Shown here in pieces: positions 10,890 through 64,000 of a stretch of DNA of 64,000 bases (position 1 is the stretch's first letter; each line of letters opens with the position of its first letter). This DNA is from Phycisphaerae bacterium (lineage in GTDB: Bacteria; Planctomycetota; Phycisphaerae; Phycisphaerales; SM1A02): assembly GCA_016873275.1 (NCBI GenBank), contig VGXO01000010.1, forward strand, positions 1-64,000. The letters run 5' to 3'. Below the pieces are notes generated by a model, which was not told where the DNA came from, made no database searches, and saw nothing but the letters and a program-made list of their open reading frames with translations. The translations under genes were made by a program, and so were the position numbers.

Positions 10890-11858
10890 GTGATCTCGAT
10901 CGACCGCACGCGGGTGGTCTTCGCGGGCTCCGGCGCCTTCGGCGTCCCCACGCTCGAGGCGATCCGCGACTCGAAGGACCTCGAGGTGGTGCTGGTGGTC
11001 ACGCCGCCGGACCGCCCGGCGGGTCGCGGTCAGCAGCCCACGCCGACCCCGATCGCCGAGGTCGCGGCGCGGTCGGGACTTGCCCGTCACGCGACCGAGG
11101 ACGTCAACGCGCCGGCGTCGCTCGAGGCGATCCGCGCGGCGGCGCCCTCGGCGCTCGTCGTGATCGCGTTCGGGCAGAAGCTCGGACCCGCGGTGCGCGA
11201 CGCGGCGTTCTCGATCAACCTGCATGCGTCGCTCCTTCCCAAGTACCGAGGCGCCGCCCCGATCCAGCGGGCGCTGATGGGAGGCGAGCGCACCACGGGT
11301 CTCAGCGTGATCTCGCTCGCCGAGCGCATGGACGCCGGCGCGGTGCACGACCGCGTGGAGGTCGCGATCGATCCGCGGGAGACCGCGGGGGAGCTCCACG
11401 ACCGCCTCGCGGCGCTCGGTCCGGAGGCGGTGCTCCGCGTGCTGCGCCGCTTCCGCGCGGGCGAGGTCCGCGCGGAGGCGCAGGAGGAGCGCCTCGCGAC
11501 GAGGGCGCCGAAGATCTCCCGCGAGGACGCGTGGGTCGACTTCTCGCGCGACGCCGAGCACCTCCGCGGATGGATCCACGGGCTGAGTCCGCGCCCCGGC
11601 TGCACGATCCGGATCGACGGCCGGACGCTGCGGCTCGTCCGCGTCGAGGCGGTCGAGGAGGTCGAGGTCGCGGCGCTGGCAGAGGTCGATGCGTCGAAGG
11701 TCGCGCCCGGGACGCTCGTCGAGCCGGGGCTTCTCCGCTGCGCCCGCGGGTGGCTTCACCCGCTCGAGGTCCAGCCGGCGGGCGGTCGGGTGATGAGCTG
11801 GGAGGAGTGGCGTCGCGGTCACGCCGTCGCCTCGGGCACGAGGGTCGAGTCGCCATGA
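10890..11858 (+). CDS. fmt: Methionyl-tRNA formyltransferase
   Basis: 322 residues from a GTG start. It formylates Met-tRNAfMet with 10-formyl-THF. The catalytic triad of the family is visible: N110 and H112 in INLHASLLPKYRGAAPIQ, and D148 in AERMDAG. A C-terminal OB-like domain (about 205-320) binds the tRNA. It directly follows def (3-bp gap) and is probably co-transcribed with the next gene. Confidence 0.97.
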   Translation: MISIDRTRVVFAGSGAFGVPTLEAIRDSKDLEVVLVVTPPDRPAGRGQQPTPTPIAEVAARSGLARHATEDVNAPASLEAIRAAAPSALVVIAFGQKLGPAVRDAAFSINLHASLLPKYRGAAPIQRALMGGERTTGLSVISLAERMDAGAVHDRVEVAIDPRETAGELHDRLAALGPEAVLRVLRRFRAGEVRAEAQEERLATRAPKISREDAWVDFSRDAEHLRGWIHGLSPRPGCTIRIDGRTLRLVRVEAVEEVEVAALAEVDASKVAPGTLVEPGLLRCARGWLHPLEVQPAGGRVMSWEEWRRGHAVASGTRVESP

Positions 11859-12582: not shown

Positions 12583-13728
12583 GTGCGCCGCGACGATCTC
12601 GACTACCCGCTCGATCCACGCCTGATCGCCACCGAGCCGGCGACCCCGCGCGACTCGGCGCGGCTGATGGTGGTGCATCCGGACCGGGTCGAGCACCGGC
12701 GGGTCCGCGACCTGCCCGAGTACCTCCGTGCCGGCGACCTCATGGTCGTGAACGCGACGCGGGTCGAGCCGCGGCGGGTGATCCTCGCCCGCGCGACGGG
12801 CGGGAGGCTCGAGGGTCTGCTCCTCGAGCCGCTCGGGGGGCGGCGCTGGCGGGCGATGCTCAAGGGCGGTCGCCGGGTCGCGAGCGGCGAGCGGCTCGAC
12901 CTCCTCGACGCCGCCGGCGCGGTCCGGGCGAGCCTCGTGGTCGAGGGGAGGGAGGGGGATGCGTGGTCCCTCCGCTTCGAGGGCGACCGTGTCGAGTCCG
13001 ACGACGAGTCCGGGGACGAGTCGGAGATCTTGCGCCTCGCCGGTCGCACGCCGCTTCCTCCCTACATCCTGCGGGCGAGGCGGGAGCGGGGCGACTCGAC
13101 CGAGGTGCTCGATCAGGAGGACGCCCTCGACCGCGACCGCTACCAGACCGTCTACGCCCACGCCGGGGCGGCGCCCTCGGTCGCGGCGCCGACGGCGGGA
13201 CTTCACTTCACGCCCGACCTCCTCCGGCGCATCCGAGACGTCGGCGTCGAGCGGCTCGAGGTCGAGCTGCAGGTCGGTCCCGGGACCTTCCGAAGCGTGG
13301 AGACCGAGCGCCTCGAGGATCACCGGATGGATCGGGAGGGATTCCGGGTGGCACCGGCGGACCTCGCGAGGCTCATCGCCCATGAGGCAAGGCGGCGGAA
13401 GGGCGAGGCGCGGACCCTCGCGGTCGGATCGACGAGCGTCCGGACGCTCGAGTCGCTGCCGGAGGATCTCGAGGCGTTGGCGGCGACCGGTCGGGGGATC
13501 GAGGCTCGGACCGACCTCCTCGTCGCTCCGGGCACGCCGATCCGGCGGTGCGACCTCCTGTTGACGAACTTCCACCTCCCGAAGTCCACCCTCGTCGCGC
13601 TCGTCGCGGCGCTCATCGGGCTCGACCGGCTCAAGTCGATCTACGCCCTCGCGGCGTCGGAGGGCTACCGGTTCTTCAGCTACGGCGACGCGATGCTCAT
13701 CCTGCCGCGCGAGGCGATTCGCGATTGA
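12583..13728 (+). CDS. queA: tRNA preQ1(34) S-adenosylmethionine ribosyltransferase-isomerase
   Basis: 381 residues from a GTG start. It transfers and isomerises the ribosyl part of SAM onto preQ1 in tRNA to form epoxyqueuosine. Family signatures include LDYPLDPRLIATEPATPRD at the N-terminus, GDLMVVNATRV, the TPLPPYI-like stretch RTPLPPYI, YQTVYA (about 187-192) with APTAGLHFT (203-211), and NFHLPKSTLVALVAALIG near the C-terminus. Together with queG in this window it shows that the organism makes queuosine. The two genes are unlinked, about 17.5 kb apart. A run of extra acidic residues (about 143-153) is a small insertion. Confidence 0.96.
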   Translation: MRRDDLDYPLDPRLIATEPATPRDSARLMVVHPDRVEHRRVRDLPEYLRAGDLMVVNATRVEPRRVILARATGGRLEGLLLEPLGGRRWRAMLKGGRRVASGERLDLLDAAGAVRASLVVEGREGDAWSLRFEGDRVESDDESGDESEILRLAGRTPLPPYILRARRERGDSTEVLDQEDALDRDRYQTVYAHAGAAPSVAAPTAGLHFTPDLLRRIRDVGVERLEVELQVGPGTFRSVETERLEDHRMDREGFRVAPADLARLIAHEARRRKGEARTLAVGSTSVRTLESLPEDLEALAATGRGIEARTDLLVAPGTPIRRCDLLLTNFHLPKSTLVALVAALIGLDRLKSIYALAASEGYRFFSYGDAMLILPREAIRD

Positions 13729-13819
13729 CGACGCGCCGACTCGGAATCCACGCCCACGGAGGGCGGCGGATCCGCTATCACATCCCGCCGTCCCCGCCGC
13801 CCCGCCCGGAACCATCACC

Positions 13820-15367
13820 GTGTTCTTCAGCCATCTCGCGACCGGGCTCGTCCGGGTCGCGAGCCCGCCGTGGATCGATCCAGTCGTCCGTGGTCTGTCG
13901 GATGACTCGCGCCTCGTCCGACCAGGTGAGCTCTTCGTCGCGCGACCAGGTCCGCGCGACGATGGCGCGCGGCACGTGCGCGACGCGATCGACCGCGGCG
14001 CCGTCGCGGTGATCGGTCCGCCGGGCGTCGCGCCCGGCGCCCTCGCGGGCGACCGGGTCGTCGCCGTCGGCGAGGCGGAGGTCGCGGCGATGCCCGCGGT
14101 GCTCGGCGAGGTCGCGGCACGGTTCTTCCGCCGTCCCAGCGAGCGGCTCGACCTGATCGGCGTGACCGGCACCAACGGGAAGACGACGGTCGCGTTCCTG
14201 ACCGCGCAGATCCTCTCGGCGGCGGGTCGGCGCACCGGGCTCATGGGCACGGTGATCACCGACGATGGCGCGACGCGGGCGCCATCGAGCCTGACGACTC
14301 CCGGCGCGATCGAGCTCCAGGACACGCTCGCCCGGATGGTCTCGCACGGTTGCACCGCCGCGTCGATCGAGGTCTCGAGCCACGCGCTCGACCAAGGTCG
14401 CGTCGCGGGAGTTCGCTTCCGCCGGGCGGTCTTCACGAACCTCACCGGCGACCACCTCGACTACCACGGCTCGATGGAGGCGTATGCCGCGGCGAAGCGG
14501 CGGCTCTTCCTCGCCCTGGATTCCTCGGGGCTCGCGATCGTCAACCTCGGCGACCCGATGGCGGAGTTCATGGTCGCGGGGATCGCGGCGCCGGTCCTCG
14601 GCTTCGCGGCGTGGGGAACGGGCGGCGCGACGGAGGCGGTCGCGGCGCGCTCGGCCGTGCGGGCCCGGCTCGGGGCGATGACGCCCTCGGGCACCGAGAT
14701 CCTCCTCGAGACGCCGTGGGGCGAGTCGACGCTCCGCGTGCCCCTCGTCGGTCGGCACAACGTGGAGAACGTGCTCGCGGCGATCAGCGTCGCGGGATCG
14801 CTCGGCGTCCCCTTCGCGGCGATCCTCGCGGCGGTCGCGTCGGCGAAGGCGCCGCCGGGGCGATTCGAGCCGGTCCCGGTGCCGGGCGGGCGCTTCACCG
14901 TCCTCGTCGACTATGCCCACACCGACGACGCGCTCCGCAATGCGCTCTCGGCACTTCGTCCGCTGCTCGCGCCGGGCTCCCGGCTCGTCGCGGTCTTCGG
15001 ATGCGGCGGCGACCGCGACCGCACCAAGCGTCCGCGCATGGCGGCGGTCGCCGCGGAGCTTGCCGACGAGGTCGTGATCACCTCGGACAATCCCCGCACC
15101 GAGGACCCCGAGGCGATCCTCGACGAGATCGCGGCGGGCCTGCCGAAGGGACGAGCCGGCGTGCGGCGGGAGGTCGATCGGGCGCGGGCGATCGAGCTCG
15201 CGATCGAGCATGCCCGCGAGGGCGACGTCGTGCTCATCGCGGGCAAGGGGCACGAGGACTACCAGATCGTGGGGCGCGAGAAGCGCGACTTCGACGACCG
15301 CCGCGTCGCGGCGGCGGCGATCGCGCGGCGGGGCGCGGGTGCGATGCAGGAGGCGGTGCTGGCGTGA
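13820..15367 (+). CDS. murE: UDP-MurNAc-tripeptide synthetase (meso-DAP-adding)
   Basis: 515 residues from a GTG start. It adds the third amino acid to UDP-MurNAc-L-Ala-D-Glu in the cytoplasm. The ATP loop GTNGKTT is at 117-123, and EVSSHAL and NLTGDHLDYHGSMEAYAAAK follow in order. The DNPR motif at 423-426 is the marker of meso-diaminopimelate rather than lysine specificity. This indicates DAP-type peptidoglycan, noteworthy because planctomycetes were long thought to lack a wall. It starts a murE-murF-mraY run. Confidence 0.97.
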   Translation: MFFSHLATGLVRVASPPWIDPVVRGLSDDSRLVRPGELFVARPGPRDDGARHVRDAIDRGAVAVIGPPGVAPGALAGDRVVAVGEAEVAAMPAVLGEVAARFFRRPSERLDLIGVTGTNGKTTVAFLTAQILSAAGRRTGLMGTVITDDGATRAPSSLTTPGAIELQDTLARMVSHGCTAASIEVSSHALDQGRVAGVRFRRAVFTNLTGDHLDYHGSMEAYAAAKRRLFLALDSSGLAIVNLGDPMAEFMVAGIAAPVLGFAAWGTGGATEAVAARSAVRARLGAMTPSGTEILLETPWGESTLRVPLVGRHNVENVLAAISVAGSLGVPFAAILAAVASAKAPPGRFEPVPVPGGRFTVLVDYAHTDDALRNALSALRPLLAPGSRLVAVFGCGGDRDRTKRPRMAAVAAELADEVVITSDNPRTEDPEAILDEIAAGLPKGRAGVRREVDRARAIELAIEHAREGDVVLIAGKGHEDYQIVGREKRDFDDRRVAAAAIARRGAGAMQEAVLA

Positions 15368-62641: not shown

Positions 62642-63613
62642 ATGGTCAAGCGGATCCTCGTCACCGGCGGCGCCGGCTTCCTCGGATCACACCTCTGCGA
62701 CCGCCTCGTCGAGCAGGGGCACGACGTCATCTGCCTCGACAACTTCTTCACGAGCCAGAAGTCGAACATCGAGCACCTTCTCGCCAAGCGCAACTTCGAG
62801 CTCGTCCGCCACGACGTGACCGAGCCGATCGTGCTCGAGGTGGACCAGATCTACAACCTCGCCTGTCCCGCGGCGCCCGGGCACTACCAGTACAACCCGA
62901 TCAAGACGACCAAGACCTCGGTCATGGGCGCGATCAACATGCTCGGGCTCGCCAAGCGCGTGAAGGCGCGGATCCTGCACGCCTCGACGAGCGAGGTCTA
63001 CGGCGATCCCGAGGTTCATCCGCAGCCCGAGAGCTATCGCGGCAACGTGAATCCCATCGGTCCGCGGGCGTGCTACGACGAGGGCAAGCGCTGCGCCGAG
63101 ACCCTGATGTTCGACTACCACCGGCAGAACCGCGTGGACATCCGGGTGGTGCGCATCTTCAACACCTACGGCCCGCGGATGCATCCCTACGACGGCCGCG
63201 TGGTGAGCAACTTCGCGCGGCAGGCGATCGCCGGCGAGGACATCACGCTCTTCGGCGATGGATCCCAGACCCGCTCCTTCTGCTACGTGGATGACCTCGT
63301 CGATGGGCTGATGCGGATGATGAACGGCCCGGCGGACTTCCACGGTCCGGTGAACCTCGGCAACCCCGACGAGTTCACGGTGCGGCAGCTCGCCGAGCTC
63401 ACGGTGAAGCTTGCCCGCACGAAGTCCACCATCCGCCAGGCTCGCCCGCTGCCGCAGGACGACCCGCAGCGGCGCCGACCGGACATCTCCCTCGCGAGGA
63501 AGATGCTCGACTGGTCGCCGAAGGTGCCGCTCGAACAGGGGCTCGCGAAGACGATCGAGTTCTTCCGCTCGATCGACCTCGGTCGCTACCGTCCGCCGAC
63601 GCCGAACTACTAG
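62642..63613 (+). CDS. uxs: UDP-glucuronate decarboxylase (UDP-xylose synthase type)
   Basis: 323 residues. This NAD-dependent extended SDR converts UDP-glucuronate to UDP-xylose, feeding surface polysaccharide. The dinucleotide loop GGAGFLGSH is at 9-17. [26 protein letters not shown] (71-96) is the UXS signature, with the catalytic Thr/Ser in STSEVYG and the Y145-x3-K149 pair (YDEGK). [13 protein letters not shown] and [18 protein letters not shown] complete the fold. The soluble bacterial length has no membrane segment. Confidence 0.95.
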
Positions 63614-63689: not shown

Positions 63690-64000
63690 TCACGCCTGAA
63701 GCCGCAGGATCGAGGTGGGCTCGTCCATGCGGAGCGCGAGGTGCATCCACGCCTGCCCGGGATATCCCTGGAGCAGCGTCACCCCGCCCTCCACGCGGTC
63801 GGGGCAGGACGGCGCGGTCATGGACGTCGCCAGTCGCTCCGCCTCGGCGCGGAGGTCCTGCCGACCGAGCAGGCGGGCGATCAGCCGGAGCGACTCGATT
63901 CGGCCCGCCATCCCGCAGCAGAGGTGGTGCCGCCCGCTGAAGATCCCGTGACGGCGCATCTCGCCGAGGGCGAGCTCGAGGTCGTCCCGCAGGAACGGCT
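63690..64000 (-). CDS. Lanthionine synthetase C-like protein, C-terminal part (gene continues past the window)
   Basis: The last 102 residues of a gene entering from the right; the frame stays open to base 64000. The segment DDLELALGEMRRHGIFSGRH is followed by HLCCGMAGR and closes with VTLLQGYPGQAWMHLALRM and a C-terminal EPTSILRLQ, matching the end of LanC domains (LCHG-aG..., GLAGiGY.LLRL..P..P.VL). The zinc motif is Cys-Cys-Gly instead of Cys-His-Gly. That is the signature of the CCG subgroup of class II synthetases (ProcM-like), whose zinc is held by three cysteines. Whether it is a full LanM, a LanC or a LanC-like protein cannot be told from this fragment. Confidence 0.75.
   Translation of the reverse strand, partial: PFLRDDLELALGEMRRHGIFSGRHHLCCGMAGRIESLRLIARLLGRQDLRAEAERLATSMTAPSCPDRVEGGVTLLQGYPGQAWMHLALRMDEPTSILRLQA

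Follow-up and report, generated by a model that had tools for sequence, protein, structure and literature searches.

The best-known promiscuous lanthipeptide synthetases with a CCG motif, ProcM and SyncM, are cyanobacterial and are associated with Nif11 leaders. According to PMC10027976, ProcM processes 29 precursors and SyncM 79, Nif11 leaders occur only with CCG LanMs, and the LanMs of a roseocin-type set with NHLP leaders are of the CHG type. The CCG motif is found in ProcM-like enzymes of marine Synechococcus (PMC10783134), and PMC12328550 describes thioether-peptide libraries built with promiscuous CCG synthetases. The NHLP/NHLM systems of Haft et al. 2010 (PMC2887384) combine NHLP precursors with TIGR03794, TIGR03796 and TIGR03797 transporters, and sometimes with a LanM that replaces the TOMM enzymes; NHLP adjoins LanM there in Nostoc PCC 7120, N. 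punctiforme and Azospirillum B510, and the words "planctomyc" and "blastopirellula" are absent from the main text. NHLP leaders have also been described in several class II families (PMC7268733). Class II lanthipeptide biosynthesis is as a kind already known, and a planctomycete species description (PMC12639061) may already mention planctomycete class II lanthipeptide clusters. In the open-access literature we found no paper combining NHLP with planctomycetes; subscription papers, e.g., Zhang et al. 2012, could mention planctomycete CCG LanMs. What differs in the Phycisphaerales locus described here is the CCG LanM with NHLP leaders, an exporter operon of the NHLM type that includes DUF7005, and a lanM/precursor cassette standing apart from that operon.

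The window, i.e., the whole stretch of DNA that was analysed, comprises the first 64000 bases of contig C10 (72856 bases), and contig coordinates are identical to window coordinates up to 64000. Three features near its right edge are relevant:

62642..63613, plus strand: NAD-dependent sugar epimerase/decarboxylase-like gene (UXS), the left border of the cassette and not a functional part of it
63690..64000, minus strand: 3' end of lanM, 102 codons and stop, from the open frame and family matches
63912..63926, minus strand: HLCCG, with zinc ligands C1051 and C1052 and the Gly of the LanC domain, from the sequence and aligned columns

On the minus strand, 63690-64000 is one open frame; its product includes GRHHLCCGMAGRIESL and HLCCGMAG, and it closes with the stop at 63690. 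A sequence-only reading of the window had taken this frame for the C-terminus of a LanC-type cyclase, with the remainder of the gene beyond the edge, and had named a LanM dehydratase domain ahead of the LanC part as support for this. All three points hold. The complete lanM frame continues on the same contig (C10:63690-67070) and corresponds to 1126 aa from a TTG start, with an ATG alternative at about C10:67040 and with all 1126 codons free of internal stops. In a genome-wide profile search the only LANC_like match of the genome (n=1) lies at lanM and crosses the window edge. The protein scores 501 bits against the NCBIfam LanM model TIGR03897 (cut-off 304), residues 252-637 match Pfam DUF4135 with 274 bits (cut-off 29), and residues 772-1086 match LANC_like with 116 bits (cut-off 23.2), values far beyond chance. 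The predicted protein joins an N-terminal DUF4135 dehydratase domain to a LanC domain at its C-terminus and has three zinc ligands in the cyclase part, the composition of a class II enzyme, and we consider it highly probable that a class II lanthipeptide synthetase gene serving the neighbouring NHLP precursors has its 3' end at 63690-64000. The motifs DxHNGGR, VYKPR, GNDFHxEN, and IDLET are mostly invariant across a six-sequence LanM alignment, and the DGHNGG, VYKPR, GNDFHSEN, and IDLET segments of the window LanM, which we take to hold the catalytic residues, align with the matching stretches of CylM and LicM2. As a proxy for the window's protein, the structure of LanM from the relative L076 was predicted (pLDDT 76.5). 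The fold and domain order of this model resemble those of CylM and LicM2, which are its best PDB matches (LicM2, E 1.9e-34; CylM, E 1.0e-25), followed by LanCL proteins (E 2e-8) and, as the first glycoside hydrolase, glucuronyl hydrolase (E 7e-4). An open frame of 1271 aa on the plus strand, antisense to lanM (C10:63411-67226), is taken as a by-product of high GC.

In an alignment with 31 other LanM rows the zinc columns of the window LanM read CCC. The first ligand, C1005, is located in WCTGADG and its codon (C10:64056-64058) falls just past the window edge; the zinc Cys whose absence the earlier reading had set as evidence against a LanC is present together with C1051 and C1052. All three zinc Cys and the Gly of the CCG motif are invariant in alignments A1 and A2, and H[LI]CCG is found in 15/15 close relatives (L065-L079). 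By these residues the predicted enzyme has the CCC triad and CCG motif of the ProcM-like group, and LicM2 has LCHG where the window LanM has LCCG. The CCG motif is by itself no proof of promiscuity. In a tree of 32 LanM rows, CCC occurs outside the window's clade in Halobiforma, Halocatena, Nostoc ATCC 53789, and Mycetohabitans; a Nif11 precursor adjoins lanM in Nostoc ATCC 53789, and Nif11 is also present in Mycetohabitans. The Azospirillum B510 LanM (L092), an example given by Haft et al. 2010, reads DLH in the zinc columns, unlike the CCC of the window, is plasmid-borne, and sits on a long branch. Altered zinc columns are also seen in the plasmid-borne LanMs of Nostoc UHCC 0926 (L083, ACW) and Pseudanabaena (L090, AMW), which share a clade with the CCC enzyme of Nostoc ATCC 53789. 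The triad is lost in Hoeflea (L081, AFC) and Ruegeria (L082, AFA), with NHLP precursors alongside, and these LanMs perhaps dehydrate without cyclising. A strict pairing of NHLP leaders with one zinc site was considered and dropped, as such leaders also accompany degenerate sites (Hoeflea, Ruegeria, Nostoc UHCC 0926). The CCG LanM match of a distant planctomycete (L125, G316:C11) is split in two and includes a stop codon, and this is probably a broken gene.

Short peptides with Gly-Gly leaders and with Ser, Thr, and Cys, which the sequence-only reading had named as support if found nearby, adjoin the gene upstream in divergent orientation:

C10:67319-67603, plus strand, divergent from lanM: precursor A, TIGR03793 76.5 bits (cut-off 50.9)
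between A and C, plus strand, divergent from lanM: precursor B, TIGR03793 41.6 bits, below cut-off
C10:68000-68272, plus strand, divergent from lanM: precursor C, TIGR03793 68.1 bits

The leader of precursor A ends in GG and is followed by the core WNPYDTETSTTCCFASG; a strong ribosome-binding site, AAGGAGGA, is located eight bases before its ATG. Precursor C likewise has a GG leader, with the core WNPCRSLGTTEG. Both look intact, and precursor B, in which the first ~15 leader positions are missing and the core is free of Cys, looks broken. The two cores both start with WNP and differ beyond it; their identity is 33%, a value reached by 349/1000 shuffles. Because the sole Cys of core C precedes Ser/Thr, any ring formed there would run in the less usual direction. 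With TIGR03793 leaders ending in GG and variable cores, the putative precursors belong to the NHLP family. The Nif11 model TIGR03798 reaches 18.8 bits on precursor A (cut-off 32.3) and is not listed on the other over-cut-off precursor. The genome has three NHLP matches (n=3), all beside lanM, and no other at E 0.001.

In 6/6 other genomes examined (G001, G002, G003, G008, G015, G034) the epimerase gene and recA adjoin, with a gap of about 0.3-0.8 kb by match ends, and in the window's genome 6.2 kb that contain lanM and the three precursors lie between them, with borders near 63.6 and 69.8 kb of C10. From this adjacency we infer that the cassette was gained by insertion, which would be the simplest reading, with either another species or another site in the genome as the source. 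Short tandem repeats of the LAQG type are found in frames between precursor C and recA (C10 about 68900-69120; L004 about 10900-11120), and of the RSDAPS type beyond recA (C10 about 71400-71900; L004 about 13400-13900); these are possibly insertion scars, or noise.

The exporter genes of the window's genome are located on another contig, C54, where HlyD, ABC1, ABC2, TolC, and DUF7005 lie together without a lanM:

L021 (G000:C54) 14154-15098: DUF7005 gene, from the Pfam match

HlyD scores 164.2 bits against TIGR03794, over the cut-off of 156.2. ABC1 (737.6 bits against TIGR03796, cut-off 853.3) and ABC2 (629.8 bits against TIGR03797, cut-off 709.4) stay below their cut-offs, and both match at full length with these as the best families. 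Ten frames after the exporter were compared with Pfam, and gave only DUF7005 and one FGE-sulfatase/TIG protein. The same lanM-less operon order is found on contig C226 of G034, whose LanM likewise belongs to clade A. Cooperation between LanM and this exporter is suggested by the C54 operon holding the only C39 match of the genome (over cut-off), and by the operons of relatives, in which both are joined.

A scan of named genomes with the single LanM protein gave no match, and a scan with the six-sequence alignment gave 18 loci, i.e., 15 close relatives (L065-L079) and three distant ones. Thirteen of the 15 close relatives are named Phycisphaerales, Phycisphaerae, Phycisphaera, or Planctomycetes/Planctomycetota MAGs, which backs the planctomycete origin that had been proposed for the locus; of the other two, one is named "bacterium" and one Crocinitomicaceae. 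The latter record (L069, Bacteroidota by its label) carries a LanM operon of the planctomycete clade, by either mis-binning or transfer. The tree of 32 LanM rows was calculated with LG+G4 rather than a mixture model, and came with warnings for a long branch (Azospirillum), two long Streptomyces branches that meet, and odd composition in many rows. L077, a second contig of the L072 MAG with nearly the same match, was used in neither the tree nor the alignments; the tree also lacks L096, whose annotated gene is short, and the unannotated L098, and A2 lacks L067. The window LanM and 14 close relatives form one clade (100/100), in which all 14 other rows have CCC zinc columns. Within it, the window LanM is sister (97/98) to clade A (L065-L068 and L076), with identity of at most 43%; L065 and L067 are near-identical, and clade A therefore has fewer independent members than rows. 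The LanMs of two genomes of the same genus (L070 from G002 and L071 from G001) group apart from that of the window. In the tree calculated without ProcM, the seven CHG references group in a single clade (100/100), with no CCG row among them.

Two ARRANGEMENTS are found among the related lanM loci, one exporter-linked and one exporter-less with a divergent precursor. Exporter genes precede lanM in 10/15 named loci (L069-L075 and L077-L079), which represent nine MAGs, since L072 and L077 come from one. The order in these is HlyD-ABC1-ABC2-TolC-DUF7005-lanM: ABC2 and TolC are present in 10/10, HlyD and a near-complete ABC1 in 9/10 (L077 is cut by the contig end), and the DUF7005 gene lies between TolC and lanM in 10/10. 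The five clade-A loci show no exporter gene above 100 bits within 13.7-23.3 kb, and in four of them a divergent NHLP precursor is located just upstream of lanM (L065, truncated; L066; L068; L076), the fifth locus, L067, beginning at a contig end. The window's locus shows the clade-A arrangement. In L072 (13564-14043) and L077 (9769-10248), one frame just after lanM contains two NHLP-like leader halves without a GG core, and may represent a regulator, a decoy, or a decayed precursor.

Co-occurrence was evaluated in 61 genomes, i.e., the window's own (G000) and relatives. LanM is over cut-off in six of these (G000, G001, G002, G008, G015, G034), with weaker partial matches in six more; NHLP leaders are over cut-off in the same six, with one weak match in G009, and DUF7005 is present in exactly these six. 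The probability of one exact coincidence by chance would be 1.8e-8 for six independent genomes, but three of the six share a genus and they are not independent. Among the matches listed, a full-length NHLM-type ABC2 match is found in 12/61 genomes, including all six with LanM; some ABC match is found in 61/61, and is over the curated cut-off in three, none of which is a LanM genome. As six related genomes have the full-length ABC2 and no over-cut-off LanM, the exporter alone is no pointer to LanM. In a phylum-wide comparison of 392 genomes (two equal-size draws, taken as the same set), DUF7005 is found in five (G000, G002, G015, G064, G085) and LanM over cut-off in seven (G000, G002, G015, G064, G129, G159, G316). 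With four genomes shared, the notion that DUF7005 always occurs with LanM fails across the phylum. No DUF7005 was found around the LanM of G129, G159, and G316 in the stretches fetched, ABC exporter matches being present in G129 and G159, and neither exporter nor LanM was found near DUF7005 in G085.

One relative, G008, has a single LanM match and 18 NHLP-leader matches on 8 contigs; two of these matches probably represent a single gene cut in two. Thirteen matches with near-full leaders were used for a comparison of cores; C8 and C5:103589 (cut by contig ends, identical overlap), C22:307 and C22:2052 (partial leaders), and C3 (divergent) were left out, and for the C25 precursor the border between leader and core was set one residue past the match end. 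Mean pairwise identity (n=13) is 66% for the leaders and 18.0% for the cores, compared with 18.9% (sd 0.8) for shuffled cores, and the observed value was reached by 87/100 shuffles. Cys accounts for 8.8% of the residues in cores and 1.4% of those in leaders, and Cys together with Ser/Thr is present in 9/13 cores. Such a pattern of conserved leaders and variable cores has been described for NHLP and Nif11 precursors (PMC2887384).

DUF7005 loci were collected from the relatives and beyond (L021, L069-L075, L077-L079, L112, L113, L114, L120, L122). The family accompanies NHLM-type exporters in three phyla, mostly with LanM nearby. In the distant planctomycete G064, DUF7005 and the HlyD, ABC1, and ABC2 genes occur together with two lanM genes, one of which is cut by the contig end. 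Among 72,556 plasmid records, 4 match DUF7005 at E 0.001. In Spirosoma oryzicola it directly follows a gene annotated as NHLM exporter, and a short LanM is annotated about 10 kb off; in Pseudanabaena galeata an annotated NHLM exporter lies in the same stretch, and a LanM is about 6.7 kb distant; in Nostoc UHCC 0926 it occurs within the same 20.8 kb as LanM and exporter matches; and in Nostoc C057 it lies near Nif11/NHLP precursors, with no LanM annotated in 20.8 kb. HExTHH and a downstream DE..AD are invariant in 9/9 operon DUF7005 proteins of relatives, and the protein of the window's genome has HELAHH and DELAAD, i.e., the HExxH plus downstream Glu pattern of zinc metallopeptidases. A sequence comparison with solved structures gave 0 matches up to E 1, and a Foldseek search with the confidently predicted structure (pLDDT 88.9) gave nothing at E 0.001 or better (best E 1.2). 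With VIA-align, 71/535 re-aligned chains reach Z 2 and none Z 5; the best, at Z 3.8, are M4 peptidases, and the top rows also include ProA, collagenase T, and BepA, but unrelated ABC proteins appear at equal Z. These scores, with the M4 value tied with unrelated rows and below the level that counts, are not taken as proof of a zincin fold. Motif and neighbourhood suggest a peptidase role, and DUF7005 probably takes part in lanthipeptide maturation.

From the domains and zinc residues, the leaders and GG sites of the precursors, the exporter genes, and the patterns of co-occurrence and synteny observed here we infer a pathway, including its chemistry, the export, and the DUF7005 role. The DUF4135 domain would phosphorylate and eliminate Ser/Thr of the NHLP-precursor cores to yield Dha/Dhb, and the LanC domain with its CCC zinc site would activate Cys thiols, whose addition to Dha/Dhb would close the thioether rings. 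Cleavage after Gly-Gly would then fall to the C39 peptidase of the NHLM-type ABC exporter on C54, and the product would exit through HlyD and TolC.

One alternative is a dedicated rather than promiscuous system, in which LanM acts on no precursors other than the one or two intact ones beside it, and in which the CCG motif reflects ancestry and not broad tolerance. It agrees with the restriction of the NHLP matches to the neighbourhood of lanM, with the WNP start common to cores A and C, and with the core (Q)GS[WF]D..CNTSF....CP.C shared by clade-A precursors beside lanM (L066, L068, L076), a similar core being found in the precursor on contig C210 of G034. According to a review (PMC12328550), the ProcM homologue MalM cannot modify ProcM precursors, which points in the same direction. 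Against it, cores A and C resemble each other after WNP no more than shuffled ones commonly do, and G008 in the same clade has its 18 matches, with cores at the shuffle baseline in the 13 near-full ones. We regard a dedicated system as a serious contender, at slightly under even chances. That the system is decaying or partly disabled, and dehydrates but no longer makes rings or exports, is improbable: precursor B, one of three, is truncated with a core lacking Cys, lanM is separated from the exporter, and 4/13 near-full G008 cores do not have both Cys and Ser/Thr, as a ring would require, but the LanM is intact over its full length with all zinc residues kept, precursor A keeps its strong ribosome-binding site, and the third-position coding GC of lanM (0.91) resembles that of the flanking genes (0.92 and 0.87).

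The two remaining alternatives concern the identity and the placement of the gene. The window alone shows only a partial LanC-like end, which would fit a non-lanthionine toroid (LanCL, glycosidase, or epimerase) at a contig edge; a glycosidase toroid is among the outcomes that the sequence-only reading had named as contrary to its own. The sequence beyond the window refutes this by the dehydratase domain and the LanM model over cut-off, and with LicM2 and CylM ranked first for the L076 fold, far ahead of the glucuronyl hydrolase, the toroid retains a negligible probability. A misassembly or contamination, by which the lanM/precursor cassette would be foreign to the epimerase-recA site, could explain why the cassette is missing at this site in all six related genomes, and why the window LanM is in a different subclade from the LanMs of the two same-genus genomes. 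We judge it very unlikely, because one contig of 72.9 kb carries the pho genes, anmK, the epimerase gene, lanM, the precursors, and recA in order with uniform coding GC, and because the genome also has DUF7005, found only with LanM in the 61-genome set. The class II synthetase serving the neighbouring NHLP precursors is the preferred reading.

Like the ProcM/prochlorosin system of Prochlorococcus MIT9313, this locus has a class II LanM with a CCC zinc site (CCG) and double-Gly leaders, and in the relative G008 the resemblance extends to a large number of dispersed precursors, whose leaders are conserved and whose cores are hypervariable. Unlike the prochlorosins, the window's precursors are NHLP (TIGR03793) and not Nif11, and are not dispersed in their genome, and unlike the ProcM system the genome has an NHLM-type two-ABC exporter with TolC and DUF7005. 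In the use of NHLP leaders by a LanM it is like the roseocin-type system (PMC10027976), but here NHLP goes with CCG instead of CHG. The NHLP precursors and LanM also agree with the NHLP/NHLM systems outlined above, and so do the best-matching exporter families, of which only HlyD is over cut-off.

The link with DUF7005 is the most novel lead of the analysis; we found no open-access paper on this family, for which the association provides a testable function. We tentatively propose, as a view that falls a little short of being the likelier one, that the NHLM-exported lanthipeptide systems of Planctomycetota, Cyanobacteriota, and Bacteroidota have in DUF7005 a so far unrecognised core component, which is probably a zinc peptidase of the HExxH type, and that in Phycisphaerales it joins an NHLP-dependent CCG-LanM system with diversity-oriented peptide libraries that evolved separately from the Nif11 prochlorosins. 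In this view the LanM would have come apart from the exporter/DUF7005 operon and been exchanged on its own. The apparent insertion of the lanM cassette near recA points to separate movement of the enzyme gene and its exporter. A planctomycete clade combined with a different leader family would mean new pairs of leader and enzyme, and the clade allows one to ask whether the CCG motif, the leader type, and the size of natural libraries evolve together.
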